Position numbers and translations under genes: made by a program
Notes under the pieces: model-generated
The model's input: the letters and a program-made list of their open reading frames with translations, nothing else
Database searches by the model: none
What the model was told of the DNA's origin: nothing
Shown here: piece by piece, positions 11,590 through 61,700 of the stretch
Layout of the letters: each line of letters opens with the position of its first letter
How positions within the stretch are numbered: the stretch's first letter is position 1
NCBI RefSeq assembly: GCF_020567425.1
Contig: NZ_JAJCVJ010000002.1
Span: 434,001-498,000 of the forward strand
Direction: 5' to 3'
Length of the DNA stretch: 64,000 nucleotides
Source of the DNA: Salinirubrum litoreum
Lineage (GTDB): Archaea; Halobacteriota; Halobacteria; Halobacteriales; Haloferacaceae

Positions 11590-11960
11590 GGCGAACGTTG
11601 CTGGCCGACTGTGGGTCGTGAGCGAACTGGAGTCGCGACTCTGGTTGACCCGGACACTCTGGCTGGCCCGGACACTCTGGCTGGCCCGGACACTCTGACG
11701 ACCCCACGACTGCACGGCACTGCGACCGCATCCGCGACCGCGACAGTAACCGCGACCGCATCCGCGACCGCGACAGTAACCGCGACCGCATCCGCGACAA
11801 CGACAGCAACGCACCTCGGTCCTCCCCAGCCTCGGGGCGCGCCCGAGAGCGCGCCCCTCCCTCGCGCGCGTCGGAGTCGCGCGCGCCGTTTCGAGGTGAA
11901 AGCGCACGCAACTCTCGTGACCCGATCACACGCCAGCAGGCGGGGAGGTGAGGGGAAGTG
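11590..11960 (-). repeat. Copy D of a dispersed composite non-coding repeat, with two tandem arrays
   Basis: The ilvD to acyl-CoA dehydrogenase gap contains an 18-bp tandem repeat (ACTCTGGCTGGCCCGGAC, about 3.4 copies, 11637-11697), a 30-bp tandem repeat built of GCGACCGCATCC and GCGACAGTAACC blocks (about 3 copies, 11722-11810), a GC-palindrome zone (11835-11890), and near 11930-11955, read on the minus strand, CTCACCTCCCCGCCTGCTGGCG. The last part matches 30837-30857 and 50016-50034 almost exactly, and the zone before it matches other intergenic regions of this window. No coding capacity is supported. Confidence 0.75.
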
Positions 11961-12082
11961 ACTGCGACGACCCGGTTCCGACTCTACGACGACTCGCCGG
12001 GTGACGACCAGTGACACCGCGATGGGTGACGACCAGAGCGAGTCGACACGAACCGTGCGTTGCTCACGTGTCACACGCCCAC

Positions 12083-26469: not shown

Positions 26470-26870
26470 AAGGTGGCTCTGGTGACGTCTGGACCGTCCA
26501 TCGCGACTGCGACCGAGACTGTACCGCAGACTGCGACCACGACGACACTGCAGACTGCGACCACGACGACACTGCAGACTGCGACCACGACGACACTGCA
26601 GACTACGACCACGACGACACTGCAGACTACGACCACGACGACACTGCAGACTACGACCACGACTGCGAGTAGCGCACCTCCCAGCGGAACCGCAACAGCA
26701 CAGCACCGTGACCGCGGCACCGACCGCAACCGCACCGGGATCGGAATAGCCACGAACCTCCCCAACCGACTGCGCGTCTCGCGTCGGCGCGCCCACGAGG
26801 GGCGCGCCGGACTACGATGCTCGTCCCTCGCGCGTCACTCGCGCGCCGACAGCACCGCGGCGAGTCACGA
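26470..26870 (-). repeat. Copy F of the composite non-coding repeat, including a 24-bp tandem array
   Basis: After the ABC exporter stop there is a 24-bp tandem repeat of unit GCAGACTGCGACCACGACGACACT, about 5.8 copies at 26526-26664; the first three units have TGCG and the last three TACG at one position. It is followed by CGCACCTCCCAGCGGAACCG (26664-26683), the exact reverse complement of part of 51948-51967, then GC-rich palindromic sequence (GGCGCGCC-type) and CCCTCGCGCG near 26827-26840. Open frames here translate to short peptide repeats in every frame and are not genes. Confidence 0.75.
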
Positions 26871-27142: not shown

Positions 27143-29785
27143 ATGTCGAACGAGAACGACCTTTCGCGGCGGGCGGTGTTGCAGGCGACAGTCGGCGCAG
27201 TCGGGGTCGCAGGGACGACCGGACTGGCGTCGGCGTCGCCCGGTGAGCTGGTCGAAGTCAACGTCGGGTATCGCGGCGGTGCTGGCAAGCAGGTTGTCGC
27301 CGGGGCCGCGTCGTCGGTGAAGCGCGACTTCGCCTTCGACGCGATGACGATGGAAGTGCCGGCCGAGGCACTGAACGGACTCCGACAGCGACCCGAGATT
27401 CGCTACGTCGAACCGAACAACCAGATGCGGGCGCTGGCCGAGTCCACCCCGTGGGGCATCGACCGGGTGGACGCCGACCTCGCCATCGAGAACGGCGACA
27501 CCGGCGAGGGTGCCGATATCGCTATCATCGACACGGGCATCGACGCCGACCACCCCGATCTGGCACCACACCTCGGCGACGGGACCGCGTACGTCTCCTG
27601 TGACGGCTGTGCGACCGCGTGGGACGACGACAACGGCCACGGGACCCACTGTGCCGGGACCGCCGCCGCAGTCGCCAACACCGAGGGCGTCGTCGGCGTC
27701 GCACCCGGTGCGACGCTCCACGCCGTGAAGGTCCTCGCGGCAGACGGCTACGGCTACTACTCCGACATCGCGGCCGGCATCGAGTGGACCGCCGATCGAG
27801 GCTACGACGTGGCGAGCCTGAGTCTCGGCGGTCCCTCGGGGTCGTACACGATGCAAGACGCGGTCCAGTACGCGACAGAGCGCGGCGTCACGGTCGTCGG
27901 CGCGGCCGGCAACGACGGCCCGTGCTCGGACTGTGTGATCTACCCGGCGGCGTACCCCGAGGTGATCGCCGTCTCCGCGACGAACAGCTACGACAGCCTC
28001 GCCGGCTTCTCCTCGACCGGGTCGGAGGTCGAACTCGCCGCGCCGGGTCGGAGCGTCTACTCGACGCTCCCCGGCGGGAGCTACGGCTACTACTCGGGCA
28101 CCTCGATGGCCTGCCCGCACGTCGCGGGCGCGGCCGGCCAACTGATGGCCGCCGGCTACTCGAACACCGAGACCCGCGACCGACTCGCCGGCACGGCCGA
28201 GGACATCGGTCTGTCCACGAACGAGAGCGGGAACGGCCTGCTCGACGTGGAGGCCGCCCTCGCCGACGGCACCGGCGACACGCCGGTCGCGGTCTCGACC
28301 GGATCGGCCTCGTCGGTCGCCGAGACGACCGCCACCCTCTCCGGCACACTCGACGACCTCGGCGGGGCCGACTCCGCCGACGTGGCCTTCGAGTACCGCG
28401 AGGCGGGCACGAGTGGGACGACCACCACGACCGCCACGACCGAGACCGCGACCGGGACCGTCTCCGCCGACGTGTCCGGTCTCGCCTCGGGCACCGACTA
28501 CGAGTTCCGCATCACGGCGACCGCCTCCGACGGCGACACCGACACCGGGACGTTCTCGTCGTTCACGACGGTCACGGCCGACACATCGGTCGTCGTCAGC
28601 ACCGACTCGGCCTCGTCGATCACGGAGACGACCGCCACGCTCACCGGCACCGTCGACGACCTCGGCGGCGCGGACTCGGCCGACGTGAGCTTCGAGTACG
28701 GCCCGGCGGGTGGGAGCCTGTCGAACTCGGTCTCCGCCGGCACGGTCTCGGCGGCCGGATCGGTCTCGGCAGACGTGTCCGGTCTCTCGTCCGGGACGGA
28801 CTACGAGTTCCGCGTCGCCGCGACCGCCTCCGACGGTGACACGGACACCGGCGGCGTCGCCGGCTTCACCACCGACGCGGACACCTCGGTCGTCGTCTCG
28901 ACCGACTCGGCCTCGTCGGTCGGCGAGAACAGCGCCACGCTGGCCGGGTCGGTCGACGACCTCGGCGGCGCGTCCTCCGCCGACGTGAGTTTCGAGTACG
29001 GCCCGGCGGGCGGAAACTTGTCGAACTCGGTCTCCGCCGGCACGGTCTCGGCGGCCGGCAGCGTCGAGGCGTCGGTGTCCGGACTCGCTGCGAGTACGGA
29101 CTACGAGTTCCGCATCACGGCGACTGCCTCCGACGGCGACACCGACACCGGGAACCTCGCGTCGTTCACCACAGACGCCGACCCCTCGGTCGCGGTCACG
29201 ACCGACGCCGAGTCCTCGGTCGGCGAGACGACTGCGACCCTGAACGCGACGGTCGACACCCTCGGCGGCGCGTCCTCGGCCGACGTGACCTTCGAGTACG
29301 GACCCGCAGGCGAGGGGCTGTCGAACTCGGTGTCGGGCGGCACCGTGTCCAGCACTGGCTCTGTCTCGGCGTCGGTGTCCGGGCTCTCGGCGGGGACGGG
29401 CTACGAGTACCGGGCGGTCGCCGACGCCTCCGACGGCGACACCGACACCGGTGGCGTCGAGGCGTTCACCACCGACAGCCAGCCGACCGAGTCCGCACCG
29501 ACCGTCGAGGGCATCTCGACGAGCGCACGGAGCAACCCGGCGCTGGCCCGGTTCCGCGTCAACTGGACGGTCGCGGACGCCGACGGCGACCTCTCGACTG
29601 TCGAGGTCACACTCGCAGACAGGACCGGCGTCGTCGCCAGCGACACGACCAGCGTCTCCGGCGGGAGCGCCAGTGCGACCTCGAAGCTCAAGACTCACGC
29701 GAAGGCCACCACCTTCGACCTCACCGTGACGGTCACCGACCGCGCGGGCAACACGAGTTCGCGGTCGACGACGGTCTCGCGGTAA
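27143..29785 (+). CDS. Tat-exported subtilisin-like serine protease (halolysin type) with four fibronectin-like repeats
   Basis: 880 residues. A twin-arginine signal (SRRAVLQATVGAVGVAG, ~8-24) is followed by an inhibitor-like propeptide (to ~100) and the S8 catalytic domain with Asp130 (IAIIDTGID), His166 (NGHGTHCAG), Asn257 (GAAGNDG) and Ser321 (SGTSMACPHVAG). From ~380 come four ~95-residue beta repeats, each with a TATL-x-(G/A)-x-(L/V)D-L-GG start, SADVxFEYGPAG middle and TDYEFRxxATASDGDTDTG end, then a final ~100-residue domain. Repeats 2 and 3 are nearly identical over long stretches. Haloarchaeal halolysins normally end with a single C-terminal extension, so the repeat array is larger than usual. 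Extracellular protein degradation is the likely job. Confidence 0.93.
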   Translation: MSNENDLSRRAVLQATVGAVGVAGTTGLASASPGELVEVNVGYRGGAGKQVVAGAASSVKRDFAFDAMTMEVPAEALNGLRQRPEIRYVEPNNQMRALAESTPWGIDRVDADLAIENGDTGEGADIAIIDTGIDADHPDLAPHLGDGTAYVSCDGCATAWDDDNGHGTHCAGTAAAVANTEGVVGVAPGATLHAVKVLAADGYGYYSDIAAGIEWTADRGYDVASLSLGGPSGSYTMQDAVQYATERGVTVVGAAGNDGPCSDCVIYPAAYPEVIAVSATNSYDSLAGFSSTGSEVELAAPGRSVYSTLPGGSYGYYSGTSMACPHVAGAAGQLMAAGYSNTETRDRLAGTAEDIGLSTNESGNGLLDVEAALADGTGDTPVAVSTGSASSVAETTATLSGTLDDLGGADSADVAFEYREAGTSGTTTTTATTETATGTVSADVSGLASGTDYEFRITATASDGDTDTGTFSSFTTVTADTSVVVSTDSASSITETTATLTGTVDDLGGADSADVSFEYGPAGGSLSNSVSAGTVSAAGSVSADVSGLSSGTDYEFRVAATASDGDTDTGGVAGFTTDADTSVVVSTDSASSVGENSATLAGSVDDLGGASSADVSFEYGPAGGNLSNSVSAGTVSAAGSVEASVSGLAASTDYEFRITATASDGDTDTGNLASFTTDADPSVAVTTDAESSVGETTATLNATVDTLGGASSADVTFEYGPAGEGLSNSVSGGTVSSTGSVSASVSGLSAGTGYEYRAVADASDGDTDTGGVEAFTTDSQPTESAPTVEGISTSARSNPALARFRVNWTVADADGDLSTVEVTLADRTGVVASDTTSVSGGSASATSKLKTHAKATTFDLTVTVTDRAGNTSSRSTTVSR

Positions 29786-30599: not shown

Positions 30600-31035
30600 T
30601 GTCGCAGGGTCCGGGGCGGGACGACGGGGTAGGGGTCGTTCGACCGACCCGGACCCGCTGCGACGCAACACGCGGGTGACTGGTTCTCGGCGTCTGTCCG
30701 ACCGATTCGTGAGACGAGCGACGCTCTCGGAGACACCGTGCGCTTCGACCCCCCGTGGCGAGCGTCCCAGCGCGTCGTGTGGCTCGACAGCCGACTTCAC
30801 ATCGCTGGTCCGGAGCCCGGTTCGCTCGTACTCCCCTCACCTCCCCGACTGCTGGCGACGCGGCCTGCGCGCAGGTCCTCGCTGTCGCTCGGACACTGCG
30901 CGGTGTCGGTCGCCAGCAGCTCGCGTCCTGTCGGGGTCCGGGCTGCCGTCGCGTGGGTGACGAGTGTGGTGTGGTCTTTCAGCTCGAATGCGGCGCGCGC
31001 GACCCCGTGGTCTTCGTGAGCGGAACGAACAGGCC
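30600..31035 (+). repeat. Copy A of the composite non-coding repeat
   Basis: The gap from 30561 to 31150 has no supported gene. Its core is 30837-30930, which matches 50012-50107 almost base for base: CACCTCCCCGACTGCTGGCGACG followed by CTCGCTGTCGCTCGGACACTG and CGGTGTCGGTCGCCAGCAG. CTGCTGGCGAC (30849-30859) and GTCGCCAGCAG (30909-30919) form a perfect 11-bp inverted repeat. Downstream, TCTTTCAGCTCGAATGCGG and GCGCGCGCGACC (about 30977-31003) match the minus strand of copy D. Frames are open but coding is not supported. Confidence 0.75.
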
Positions 31036-41370: not shown

Positions 41371-41399
41371 GTTTTCGTCGGTTGCGTCGGACGACCGAC

Positions 41400-41510
41400 C
41401 CCCCACGCGGTCCGGTGGCGACCGGACCCGCACCGTGCCCGAGGGACGGCGATGAGCGAGTCACCGGTCGCGTCGCCAGCAGTCGGAGAGGTGTGGGGAG
41501 TACCGCGACA
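41400..41510 (-). repeat. Copy C of the composite non-coding repeat
   Basis: On the minus strand 41412-41500 reads CACACCTCTCCGACTGCTGG, then CGACGCGACCGGTGACTCGCT, then a CGGGCACGGTGCGGGTCCGG segment, aligning with 50013-50100. The arm CTGCTGGCGAC (41472-41482 on the minus strand) is intact, whereas the opposite arm has two changes (near 41413-41422). It occupies the gap between the ACT-hom promoter and the dnaG promoter; nothing else is seen between 41377 and 41655. Confidence 0.7.
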
Positions 41511-41659
41511 ACCGGCGTCCGAACCGGCCCAGCGACACGCCGAGAACACGGTCCGAGGTGCGTGGGACCCGACACGACAGGGCCTCGGGAGACCGACGAA
41601 TCCACCAGACTGCGCGCCGACTCGCTGTGGGTACGACAGCTATTTCCGGCACGCCCGCC

Positions 41660-49842: not shown

Positions 49843-49989
49843 TGCTATGCTATGCCGTACCAAGACTGTTCTCGTTTGTAAATCTTTGCGAAAGGCTTTT
49901 TATAGACGATCAAATCCGGGACTGTTCGGTTCTCGGCGAGATTCGTCGGGAATCGTGTCGTGAGTCGGCTGTCTGGTGGACTCGGTGGG

Positions 49990-50470
49990 GAATCCGGCTG
50001 TCGCAGTCCCCCCACACCTCCCCGACTGCTGGCGACGAACGTGCGGGCAGGTCACTCGCTGTCGCTCGGACACTGCCCGGTGTCGGTCGCCAGCAGATCG
50101 CGTCCTGTCGGATTCCAGAACCGGCGGTAGCGAGCGTTCAACCGGCTATCTGGCGGAGTTGGAAACCTCGAAATCGGTGATAGATGGTGGGTTGCGTGCG
50201 ACTTCACTGATAAGTCTGGCGCGTGCGAGAACCGCGCGCGAGGGAGGTGAGCACGGGCGGTGCGGAGAACTTCGGGCGGTGTTGAGAGAAGTCAAGAGGT
50301 TGGGGAAGACGAGGTGCAGTGCCGTCGCGGTCGCGGATGCGGTTGCGGTTCTGCTGGGCGGTGCGCTACGACGAGTGGCGGTGCTGGTGCAGTAGCTGTC
50401 GTGGGCGCGAGTTGCGGTGGCGTAGCTGTCGCGGGTTGCGGTGCTGTCGGTACAAGAAACCTCCACCACC
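49990..50470 (+). repeat. Copy B of the composite non-coding repeat (most complete copy)
   Basis: Fills the 696-nt gap between DUF5802 and hemL. Parts in order: a stem-loop with arms CTGCTGGCGAC (50026-50036) and GTCGCCAGCAG (50086-50096); GCGCGCGAGGGAGG with GAGCACGGGCGGTG (about 50240-50262); GGTTGGGGAAGACGAGGTGC (about 50299-50318); GTCGCGGTCGCGGATGCGG repeats; and GTTGCGGTTCTGCTGGGCGG (about 50342-50361) plus further GTAGCTGTCG units to about 50460. Each part has counterparts in other copies. Frames are open but without coding signs. Confidence 0.75.
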
Positions 50471-50538: not shown

Positions 50539-51876
50539 ATGCACCACGACGAGTCGCGCGACCTCTACGACCGCGCTCTCTCCGTCATCCCCGGCGGGGT
50601 GAACTCGACGGTCCGGGCCATCGACCCGTACCCCTTCTTCGTCCAGCGCGGCGACGGCGCACACGTCGTCGACGCCGACGGCAACCGCTACCTCGACTTC
50701 GTGAACGCCTACGGCCCACTGCTGTACGGCCACGACCCACCCGAGCAGGTCCAGTCGGCGATCCAGTCGTACTCCGCCGAGGGACCGATGTACGGCGCGC
50801 CGACAGAGATCGAGGTCGAACTCGCCGAGTTCCTCGCGCGCCACGTCCCGTCGGTCGAGATGACCCGGTTCGTCAACAGCGGGACCGAGGCCACGGTCTC
50901 CGCCGTCCGACTCGCCCGTGGCTACACCGGCCGGGACAAGATCGTCGTCATGCGCGGCGGCTACCACGGCGCACAGGAGACGACCCTCGTCGAGGGCGAG
51001 GCGGGCCACGTCCACCCGAGCAGTGCCGGCATCCCGGCGGAGTTCGCCCAGCACACCATCCCGGTGTCGTTCAACGACCCCGAGGAGATCACCCACGTCT
51101 TCGAGCGCCACGGCGACGACATCGCGGCCGTCCTCACCGAACCGGTGCTGGGCAACACCGCGACCATCCTCCCGGTCGACGGCTACCTGGAGACGCTCCG
51201 CGAGTTGTGTGACGACCACGGCGCACTGCTCGTCTTCGACGAGGTGATGACCGGCTTCCGGGTCGGCGGCCTGCAGTGTGCCCAGGGGAAGTTCGGCGTC
51301 ACGCCCGACGTGACCACCTTCGCCAAGATCGTCGGCGGCGGGTTCCCGGTCGGTGCCATCGGCGGGAAGGCCGAGATCATGGAGCAGTTCACGCCCTCCG
51401 GCGAGGTGTTCCAGGCCGGCACGTTCAACGGCCACCCGGTCGCCATGGCCGCAGGGTTGGAGTATCTCACATACGCCGCCGAGCACGACGTCTACGAGCA
51501 CGTGAACCGCCTCGGCGAGCGTCTGCGCTCGGGGCTGACCGACATCCTCGCGGAGAAGGAGCCGACCTACACGGTCGTCGGCACCGACAGCATGTTCAAG
51601 GTCGTCTTCTCCCGCAGGGGCCCCGACGACCTGACAGACCAGTGTGACTCCGGGTGTCGCCAGCGGGCCGACTGCCCCCGGTTCGACCACTGTCCGAAGA
51701 ACGGGGCGGACGTGCAGGCCGCCGAGACGAACCGCTACGAGCGCGTCTTCTGGCACGAGATGAAAGACGAGGGCGTCTTCCTCACGCCGAACCAGTTCGA
51801 GTCCTGCTTCATCAGCTACGCCCACACCGAGGCGGACATCGACCGGACGCTCGAAGCGTACGACGCCGTGCTCTGA
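50539..51876 (+). CDS. hemL: Glutamate-1-semialdehyde 2,1-aminomutase
   Basis: 445 residues from ATG 50539. PLP enzyme producing 5-aminolevulinate for heme, siroheme and cobamide synthesis. [20 protein letters not shown] starts the family; [17 protein letters not shown] and [13 protein letters not shown] are conserved; PLP-lysine lies in [14 protein letters not shown] Cys-rich insertion, [17 protein letters not shown] (about 371-387), is typical for haloarchaeal members and may bind metal. A promoter-like ACTACTAAC is 30 nt upstream. Confidence 0.95.
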
Positions 51877-51904
51877 ACGACCACCGTCGTCCGGCCACGC
51901 GCGT

Positions 51905-52010
51905 TTCGTCGTGGCGGCGAGCGAACACCGCTGTGCGGGTGCGGTTCCGCTGGGAGGTGCGTCAGATCGCGTAGCTGTGCCGTCGCGGTCCTGTCACCGT
52001 CACGGCGTCT
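51905..52010 (+). repeat. Copy G, right-end fragment of the composite repeat
   Basis: GGTTCCGCTGGGAGGTGCG (51949-51967) is the exact reverse complement of part of copy F and parallels copy B near 50348, followed by GTAGCTGTGCCGTCGCGG. Only the right-hand end of the repeat is present, between hemL and tRNA-Met. No gene is seen here. Confidence 0.65.
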
Positions 52011-52066: not shown

Positions 52067-52180
52067 TGGGCCCTGCCGGATTCGAACCAGCGACCGCCCG
52101 GTGTCCCACGACCGCCGACCGCACCCGCAGACGACGACCGGTATGAGCCGGGTGCTCTAACCAGACTAAGCTAAGGGCCC
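52067..52180 (-). tRNA. tRNA-Met (CAT) with a 39-nt intron
   Basis: The minus strand folds as a tRNA: acceptor GGGCCCT pairing with AGGGCCC (A discriminator, no encoded CCA), D arm GCTTAGTCTGGTTAGAGC, anticodon stem CCCGG/CCGGG, T loop GGTTCGAATCC. Loop is CTCATA then A, with anticodon CAT at 52143-52145. The intron at 52103-52141 sits after position 37, the canonical archaeal site. Elongator tRNA-Met introns are known in haloarchaea. CAT could also be an initiator or Ile2 (tilS-type) tRNA; the intron favours elongator Met. Confidence 0.9.
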
Positions 52181-60785: not shown

Positions 60786-60889
60786 GGGCACGTAGCTCAG
60801 TCTGGAAAGAGCGTCGGACTTCTAACCGTGGCGGTGTTCCGTCGCGGGAAGCCATCCGACGGTCGTGGGTTCAAATCCCATCGTGCCCG
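60786..60889 (+). tRNA. tRNA-Arg (TCT) with a 29-nt intron
   Basis: Acceptor GGGCACG/CGTGCCC, D arm GCTCAGTCTGGAAAGAGC, anticodon stem TCGGA/TCCGA, T arm GTGGGTTCAAATCCCAT; discriminator G; no encoded CCA. The anticodon loop is CTTCTA plus A, giving TCT at 60821-60823. The intron 60825-60853 lies after position 37, as in standard archaeal introns; the mature tRNA is 75 nt. An upstream T-run (GTTTTTTG, about 60752) lies in the promoter position. Confidence 0.9.
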
Positions 60890-61129: not shown

Positions 61130-61480
61130 GAGGTGAAAGCCCCCGACCGCTCAACCGCCGGGAGAGGCAAGCTCTCCCGAGCCTTCGTTCGCTTCGCTCA
61201 CGAAGACGGCCGCGACTTGGTGCGCGCTTCCCTCAGGCTGGCGGGACAAGCCCGCCAGCCCTCAGTCCAGTGCTACCGGCGTCGGGGCCGGGTCGAGCGG
61301 TCGGCCCCTTTCAGTCCCACCCGAGTTGCGACTCCATCGTGCAACTCGCGGTGGACCAGTCGGATCAGCGCGAGCGCCTCCCTGCGACCGTCGGCGTCGC
61401 CCGAGGCGGCCCTGCGCCGCCGAGGTGCGCGACACGGAGGTCGCGCCAGCCTACTCGACTGGTCTTGTGTCGTGAGTCAG
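61130..61480. other. Island of perfect hairpins of unknown origin
   Basis: No gene is supported. Perfect stems: CGGGAGAG-GCAAG-CTCTCCCG (61159-61179), CTTCGT/ACGAAG around 61183-61205, and the 10-bp GGCTGGCGGG-ACAAG-CCCGCCAGCC (61236-61260). A CTTTCAGTCCCACCCGAGTT segment follows near 61307-61326. The dense hairpins resemble the structured ends of IS200/IS605-type elements, but no transposase remnant is visible, so this is only a suggestion. Confidence 0.35.
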
Positions 61481-61700
61481 CATCACAATTCAGTTGTCGC
61501 CGTTGCGGACGGCGCGTGCGCGTGGCGCGCACGCGAGGGAGGCGAACGCGGGCGGTGCTGAGAGCGTTCGCCGAGGCTGGGGAGGTGTGAGGCTCGCGCG
61601 ATTGCGGTGCGGTCGCGGTGCTGTGGCGGTGCGGTCGAATAGTCCGTTTGCACCGGATCGAGTAGCGGTGCTGTCGCGGTCTGCGGTTCAGTTCCAAGCA
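61480..61700 (+). repeat. Copy E of the composite non-coding repeat
   Basis: GCGTGCGCGTGGCGCGCACGC palindrome (about 61518-61540), ACGCGAGGGAGG with GAACGCGGGCGGTG (61536-61558), GAGGCTGGGGAGGTGTGAGG (61573-61592) and GCGGTGCGGTCGCGGTGCTG repeats to about 61685. The order matches copies B, D and F, but the left stem-loop is missing. It lies before the sulfatase gene, whose upstream 150 nt contain a TATA candidate at about 61787 (GATATACTTC). Confidence 0.65.

Follow-up and report, generated by a model that had tools for sequence, protein, structure and literature searches.

A modular family of intergenic palindromic repeats in Salinirubrum litoreum and its recurrence among haloarchaea

The window analysed here is a stretch of 64,000 nucleotides from the haloarchaeon Salinirubrum litoreum (positions 434,001 to 498,000 of contig NZ_JAJCVJ010000002.1, hereafter C2), whose genome comprises 4.06 Mb in five contigs. 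A first-pass annotation had described a composite repeat dispersed through the intergenic DNA of this window, and all window copies indeed lie between predicted genes. Five blocks in fixed order had been ascribed to each copy; all five are present only in copy 5. This copy opens with the window's best module B (49985-50119, + strand; covariance model R2, 137.9 bits, E 3e-33), in which an outer stem (GGAATCCG/CGGATTCC), a CCTCCCC joint, a further stem (CTGCTGGCGAC/GTCGCCAGCAG) and an inner stem are predicted, the stems covarying in 37 copies. A diverged module C (GCGCGTGCGAGAACCGCGCGC-GAGGGA ... GAGGTTGGGGAAG) follows at 50216-50321 (+; model R1, 34.5 bits, E 2e-6), and 3' of it lies a degenerate tail (GTCGCGGTCGCGGATGCGGTTGCGG...) at 50322-50456 (+), recognised by its sequence, which recurs after module C in other copies. 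The fourth of the original blocks corresponds to this degenerate GCGGTGCTGTCGCGG-type tail, the make-up of which varies.

The other copies are less complete. Copies 3 and 4 are mainly module B, the former at 30808-30942 (+; R2 134.1 bits, E 3e-32) with a probable remnant of hairpin A of module C (GCGGCGCGCGCGACC), seen by sequence and under the model threshold, at 30990-31005 (+), and the latter with module B only at 41394-41523 (-; R2 67.9 bits, E 3e-15). On the minus strand, the truncated 5' part of a module B (11890-11983; R2 24.5 bits, E 4e-4, match 11870-11983) is joined to a well-preserved module C (11807-11889; R1 85.9 bits, E 7e-19) and a tail that consists of three tandem 30-bp repeats (11719-11808; family D19). 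Copy 2, also on the minus strand, comprises a diverged module C (26743-26849; R1 23.4 bits, E 1e-3) and a tail module, GTTGCGGTTCCGCTGGGAGGTGCG, at 26673-26704, adjoined by a seven-unit 24-bp tandem array (GACTGCGACCACGACGACACTGCA) at 26505-26672. The same tail module, with a 94% match over 32 nt, stands alone at 51930-51961 (+) in copy 6 (51905-52010), between a hemL-like aminotransferase gene and a tRNA gene. The rightmost module C (61509-61599, +; R1 61.4 bits, E 7e-13) is composed of hairpin hpA, GAGGGAGG, hairpin hpB (CGAACGC...GCGTTCG) and CGAGGCTGGGGAGG, and is followed at 61600-61690 (+) by GCGGTGCTGTGGCGG runs and a TCGAATAGTCCGTTTGCACCGGATCGAGTAGC module recognised by sequence and found also in loci L052, L054, L066 and L087. 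An R2 match at 1825-1967 (22.8 bits) lies inside a gene and was taken as chance.

Two tRNA genes near element copies, at 52067-52180 (-, 114 nt) and 60786-60889 (+, 104 nt), were the only matches of the whole window to Rfam 15 at the gathering score, so that the repeat matches no Rfam family; both were missed by ARAGORN, and their lengths suggest introns. A separate instance of repetition, four 300-nt tandem repeats at 28274-29476, lies within a subtilase/fn3-domain gene (27143-29785).

To define the family, about 60 loci were retrieved from the S. litoreum genome and the copies aligned, and covariance models were built for module B (R2) and module C (R1). Full copies span approximately 500-900 bp, longer than originally described, and contain three main modules and the degenerate tail. 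The ends of the aligned copies, for which this genome offers no empty site, are ragged, and no clean termini were seen. Module B is the CACCTCCCCGACTGCTGGCG region, with the core CTCCCCGACTGCTGGCGAC and about 62 copies genome-wide. Module C has the arrangement hpA-GAGGGAGG-hpB-CGAGGCTGGGGAGG and 98 copies, counting matches with E up to 1e-3. Module A, a 5' module missing from the first-pass annotation, lies upstream of B and ends in CCCCTTTCAGTCCCACCCG; its anchor, GGGTGGGACTGAAAGGGGC, has 65 exact copies in the genome. Within the window only the anchor was located (GCCCCTTTCAGTCCCACCC, exact pattern at 61304-61322, +, with the G-rich strand on the minus strand; G000:C2:495304-495322). With copy 5 as a blastn query, 54 matches were found in the genome, and a search for the core 19-mer that allowed up to three mismatches gave 78 occurrences, as against 11 for its reversed control. 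Reversed-pattern controls for the core 19-mer and the A anchor rule out similarity of composition alone and, together with the covariance models, bear out the original claim of a dispersed composite repeat. No near-identical copies were seen in the genome, the best identities between cores in the blastn search with copy 5 being only 88-92%. One contig, C4 (179,491 bases), terminates inside a module B copy (G000:C4:179446-179464), where the repeat may thus have broken the assembly, and at locus L055 the far end of the element, approximately +350 to +480 past the core motif, carries at least seven tandem copies of GCCACGCTTTCAGTTCCA.

Where the modules are close, their order and orientation are invariant: A precedes B in 21 of 21 cases, mostly by 106-111 nt, C follows B in 39 of 39, and A precedes C in 45 of 45, the ordered blocks being found throughout the genome. 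C also occurs without a nearby B (59 of 98 copies). All 57 module B copies checked are intergenic, on both strands, according to gene calls from a purpose-built coding model rather than curated annotation (ten flanking genes tested all had Pfam matches). Contigs C3 and C5, which we infer to be plasmids, make up 17% of the genome yet hold a single copy of each module, out of 98 for C, 65 for A and 58 for B (binomial p 2e-7, 7e-5 and 2e-4, respectively). No regular spacing or strand polarity is apparent in the position lists of A and C, and a seeming strand bias of the A copies in a single Halorussus genome did not hold up in the full list.

The copies had been called partly decayed, but their divergence is not mere decay, since base pairs are preserved through double changes. 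Of the 31 pairs predicted for module B, 15 show double changes with pairing retained, and 42 columns are invariant (37 copies); its outer stem reads, depending on the copy, GGAACCCG/CGGGTTCC, GGAATCCG/CGGATTCC, GGACCCCG/CGGGGTCC, GGACTCCG/CGGAGTCC or GGAGTCCG/CGGACTCC. Module C combines nearly fixed joints with an hpB of more than 100 distinct sequences. The general plan is thus one of fixed G-rich joints (GAGGGAGG, CGAGGCTGGGGAGG and GGGYGGGACT[G/C]AAAGGGG...GGGGCTTT[C/G]) alternating with hairpins of free sequence in which pairing is kept. In module A, searched with a pattern that left both closing-pair bases free, the bases that precede AAAG and follow CTTT form G-C in 54 copies and C-G in 57, with no other combination among the 111; these two states track clades and may represent few events. 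Halorussus-type module A (L336-L369) has an inner hairpin that keeps CCTATC facing GATATG, with one T unpaired, in a stem otherwise of free sequence.

The mismatches within these stems carry information on the strand. On the G-rich strand of module A, 42 G.U and 11 A.C wobbles were counted, and module B has 4 G.U and 21 A.C on the plus strand, i.e. 21 and 4 on the G-rich strand, all counts being phylogenetically non-independent across related copies. This excess of G.U indicates that the G-rich strand is the working one and suggests that it acts in single-stranded form, whether RNA or ssDNA. The hpB stems contain 1111 Watson-Crick pairs, 4 G.U, 7 A.C and 8 others; G.U thus accounts for 0.4% as against 4% (7 of 168) in 14 tRNAs of the same DNA (Fisher p 1e-4), which argues against selection of hpB as an RNA helix.

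In covariance-model and pattern searches of haloarchaeal genomes, many genera besides Salinirubrum proved to carry module A or C. Among 117 genomes of the order, module B was confined to S. litoreum, the one genome representing its genus, and weak matches in three other genomes (30-33 bits) were taken as chance. Module C was detected by R1 in 28 of the 117 genomes and 12 of 49 genera. Exact C matches number about 40 in Halorussus halobius and occur in other Halorussus, Halorubrum and Haloprofundus, and two genomes that are, judging by their sequence, Halorubrum yielded 102 and 71 matches when scored more fully. The A anchor is present in 30 of 57 genera (74 of 146 genomes; control, 0). In Halorubrum, A lies 3' of C on the same strand in 55 of 55 cases, mostly 17-28 nt away, whereas in S. 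litoreum A precedes C and its G-rich strand is the opposite one, indicating that the same modules have been assembled differently by clade. The exact pattern had no match in viral contigs, and a blastn search of module C against plasmids and phages returned nothing, though blastn has little sensitivity for an element that varies in its long parts. The repeat is a real and apparently undescribed, order-wide family of modular intergenic palindromic repeats, its modules recurring across much of the haloarchaeal order; we take the family to be old.

Comparison of copies suggested how the hairpins change. Among copies with identical hpB in four genomes, hpA differs in 199 of 205 pairs, so that dispersed copies seem to trade whole hairpins at the 7-14 nt joints; in Halorussus halobius, one of four hpB sequences is used by 30 of 40 copies. 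Two Halorubrum species share ten copies at the same site, in the same orientation in 10 of 10, with flank matches of at least 583 nt. The hairpins of these same-site copies are mostly unrelated (hpB identity 0.51-0.89), and one pair, L254/L328, shows a compensated change. One fetched Halorubrum site is without the element. Same-site partners were shown for about 10 of 70 Halorubrum copies, the second genome being covered in part, and movement or loss may therefore have occurred in this genus. The same comparison between S. litoreum and Halorubrum gave no signal and had no power, because most of the Halorubrum genes fetched flank an element. In a single case, an element lies directly after what seems to be the same hemL-like aminotransferase gene in Halorubrum (L226) and in the window (51876-52010).

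To our knowledge, no order-wide family of such intergenic repeats has been described in haloarchaea, and the sequence words of the element were not found in the haloarchaeal papers searched. Integron attC sites have a variable, self-complementary segment enclosed by short conserved boxes and are recognised as folded single-stranded DNA; the likeness to the present repeat is one of architecture only, no attC core sites having been seen. The nearest described kinds are the PATEs and SMRs of Haloquadratum and the BOX elements. BOX of Streptococcus pneumoniae (boxA-boxB-boxC; PMC3049150) is likewise composite and intergenic, its distinct modules keeping a set order with one of them optional, and it has strong predicted folding and many copies on both strands (PMC3049150). 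Compared by architecture, there being no known sequence relation, the present repeat differs in having free, shuffled hairpins between fixed joints and modules that recur across genera in differing orders, and no IS-like terminal repeat was identified. It shares with the REP/BIME elements associated with RAYT transposases its intergenic palindromes, a copy number of about 100 and a mosaic arrangement (PMC2817692), but the GT(A/G)G head is absent from the aligned copies and here it is the joints that are conserved and the palindromes that vary. Dispersed intergenic copies, a fixed module order and a fold kept by compensation place the repeat in a BOX/BIME-like class, which denotes kind and not homology. 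The PATEs and SMRs of Haloquadratum walsbyi are also haloarchaeal, short, palindromic and heterogeneous, without a transposase gene and with up to about 190 copies (PMC3119063). PATEs are tied by their description to IS605-type ends and strain-specific insertions (PMC3119063), which sets them apart in kind from the present repeat, for which no consistent TnpB link was found, although the two may be related in sequence.

That the copies are old insertions of a non-autonomous mobile element (a MITE, or a PATE derived from IS200/IS605) moved in trans by a host transposase, one of three options raised by the first-pass annotation, is possible but unlikely. It would account for a multi-copy, intergenic repeat in both orientations with no ORF and near-terminal palindromes, PATEs of this sort have been reported from Haloquadratum (PMC3119063), and exact C copy number varies strongly among relatives, with about 40 in Halorussus halobius as against 0-5 in the other species. 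However, the S. litoreum genome has 15 TnpB genes, and in the 12 regions fetched the only convincing match was one module C approximately 2 kb from a TnpB gene, with no B and no A 5' anchor; in two other genomes, 3 of 8 TnpB regions contain an A or C. The shared IS605-type/TnpB ends by which PATEs are defined were not found in the S. litoreum regions, leaving an IS605/TnpB origin unsupported. Contigs C3 and C5 are depleted of the repeat in spite of carrying TnpB genes, viral contigs lack the exact pattern, cores are at best 88-92% identical, and sites and orientation are common to the two Halorubrum species. Nor would decaying insertions be expected to show invariant module order and compensated stems.

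Structure, another of the original options, is supported by the covarying stems and the wobble asymmetry in A and B. Multi-copy genes for small structured RNAs with their own promoters would agree with this asymmetry, with SD-like GGAGG joints, with an AT-rich stretch resembling BRE/TATA that separates B from C in some S. litoreum copies, and with a TATA-like box 15-25 nt before module C in 13 of 38 Halorubrum copies as against 2 in the control interval. We consider such genes doubtful, as the box is missing from all 34 H. halobius copies and precedes just 4 of the 26 S. litoreum ones, hpB is almost devoid of G.U and Rfam yields no match; a universal promoter before C was rejected, the box being confined to some Halorubrum and a few S. 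litoreum copies. Equally tentative is the idea that module A forms a conserved quadruplex-duplex hybrid with a hairpin cap, foldable as DNA or RNA in the molar K+ of the haloarchaeal cytoplasm, with module C perhaps a two-layer version. Of its G-tracts (GGG, GGG, GGGG, GGGG), the third and fourth would lie opposite one another, with a short lower helix, [G/C]AAAG/CTTT[C/G], on one side and the upper hairpin of free sequence on the other. If true, hairpin-capped G-quadruplexes would occur at up to more than 100 sites per genome, with caps swapped between copies; the passages found in papers on archaeal G-quadruplexes (PMC7565180, PMC12873603) do not describe this repeat. The third original option, a protein-binding or chromosome-organising array with the G-rich joints or a cruciform as the site for a nucleoid, partition or repair protein, would suit the invariant joints, the uneven distribution among replicons and the intergenic, orientation-neutral placement. 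It is quite improbable, given position lists with no apparent regular spacing or strand polarity and a shuffling of hairpins that binding alone does not explain. Strong hairpins, and the start of several Halorubrum copies 40-90 nt from a stop codon, might suggest terminators, attenuators or 3'-UTR elements of adjacent genes. The four classes of neighbour-gene orientation around module B are about equal (15/14/14/13), tandem genes around C in three taxa are co-directed with the element 36 times (++) and opposed 26 times (--), which is nearly equal, and divergent gaps are occupied at about the genomic rate. These numbers are at odds with a terminator, a leader or a 3'-UTR element, and we regard such a role as very improbable indeed.

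The data presented above have led us to propose, with a probability of about 0.5, that the family represents ancient, BOX/BIME-like modular intergenic palindromic repeats of the chromosome, in which a folded single strand is recognised and hairpins turn over by copy-to-copy exchange. The architecture, distribution, orientation neutrality and shuffling of hairpins are established at the level of sequence comparison. The G-rich strand would work when single-stranded, either in a transcript or as ssDNA at the replication fork, and the joints together with the hairpin fold would be the thing recognised or selected. At the short joints, template switching or gene conversion might overwrite one copy with the sequence of another, which would lead to hairpin turnover and could also keep the hairpins perfect; acting at replication forks and among the copies of the genome, respectively, either process would account at once for the swaps and the perfect pairing. 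The family looks immobile at present in S. litoreum, where we take it to be inherited in place. Against selection on the fold stands the ability of template switching to perfect palindromes without it.

With its presence in half of the sampled genera, about 100 copies in some genomes, and fixed joints alternating with shuffled perfect palindromes, the family offers a handle on short-segment rewriting in polyploid, highly recombining genomes, and on whether a chromosome-wide role falls to a folded single strand, be it RNA, ssDNA or a G-quadruplex. Many unannotated GC-rich spacers would be explained by it as well. If the repeats are functional, covariance models are ready for their annotation; if they are not, they would constitute a natural record of template switching.
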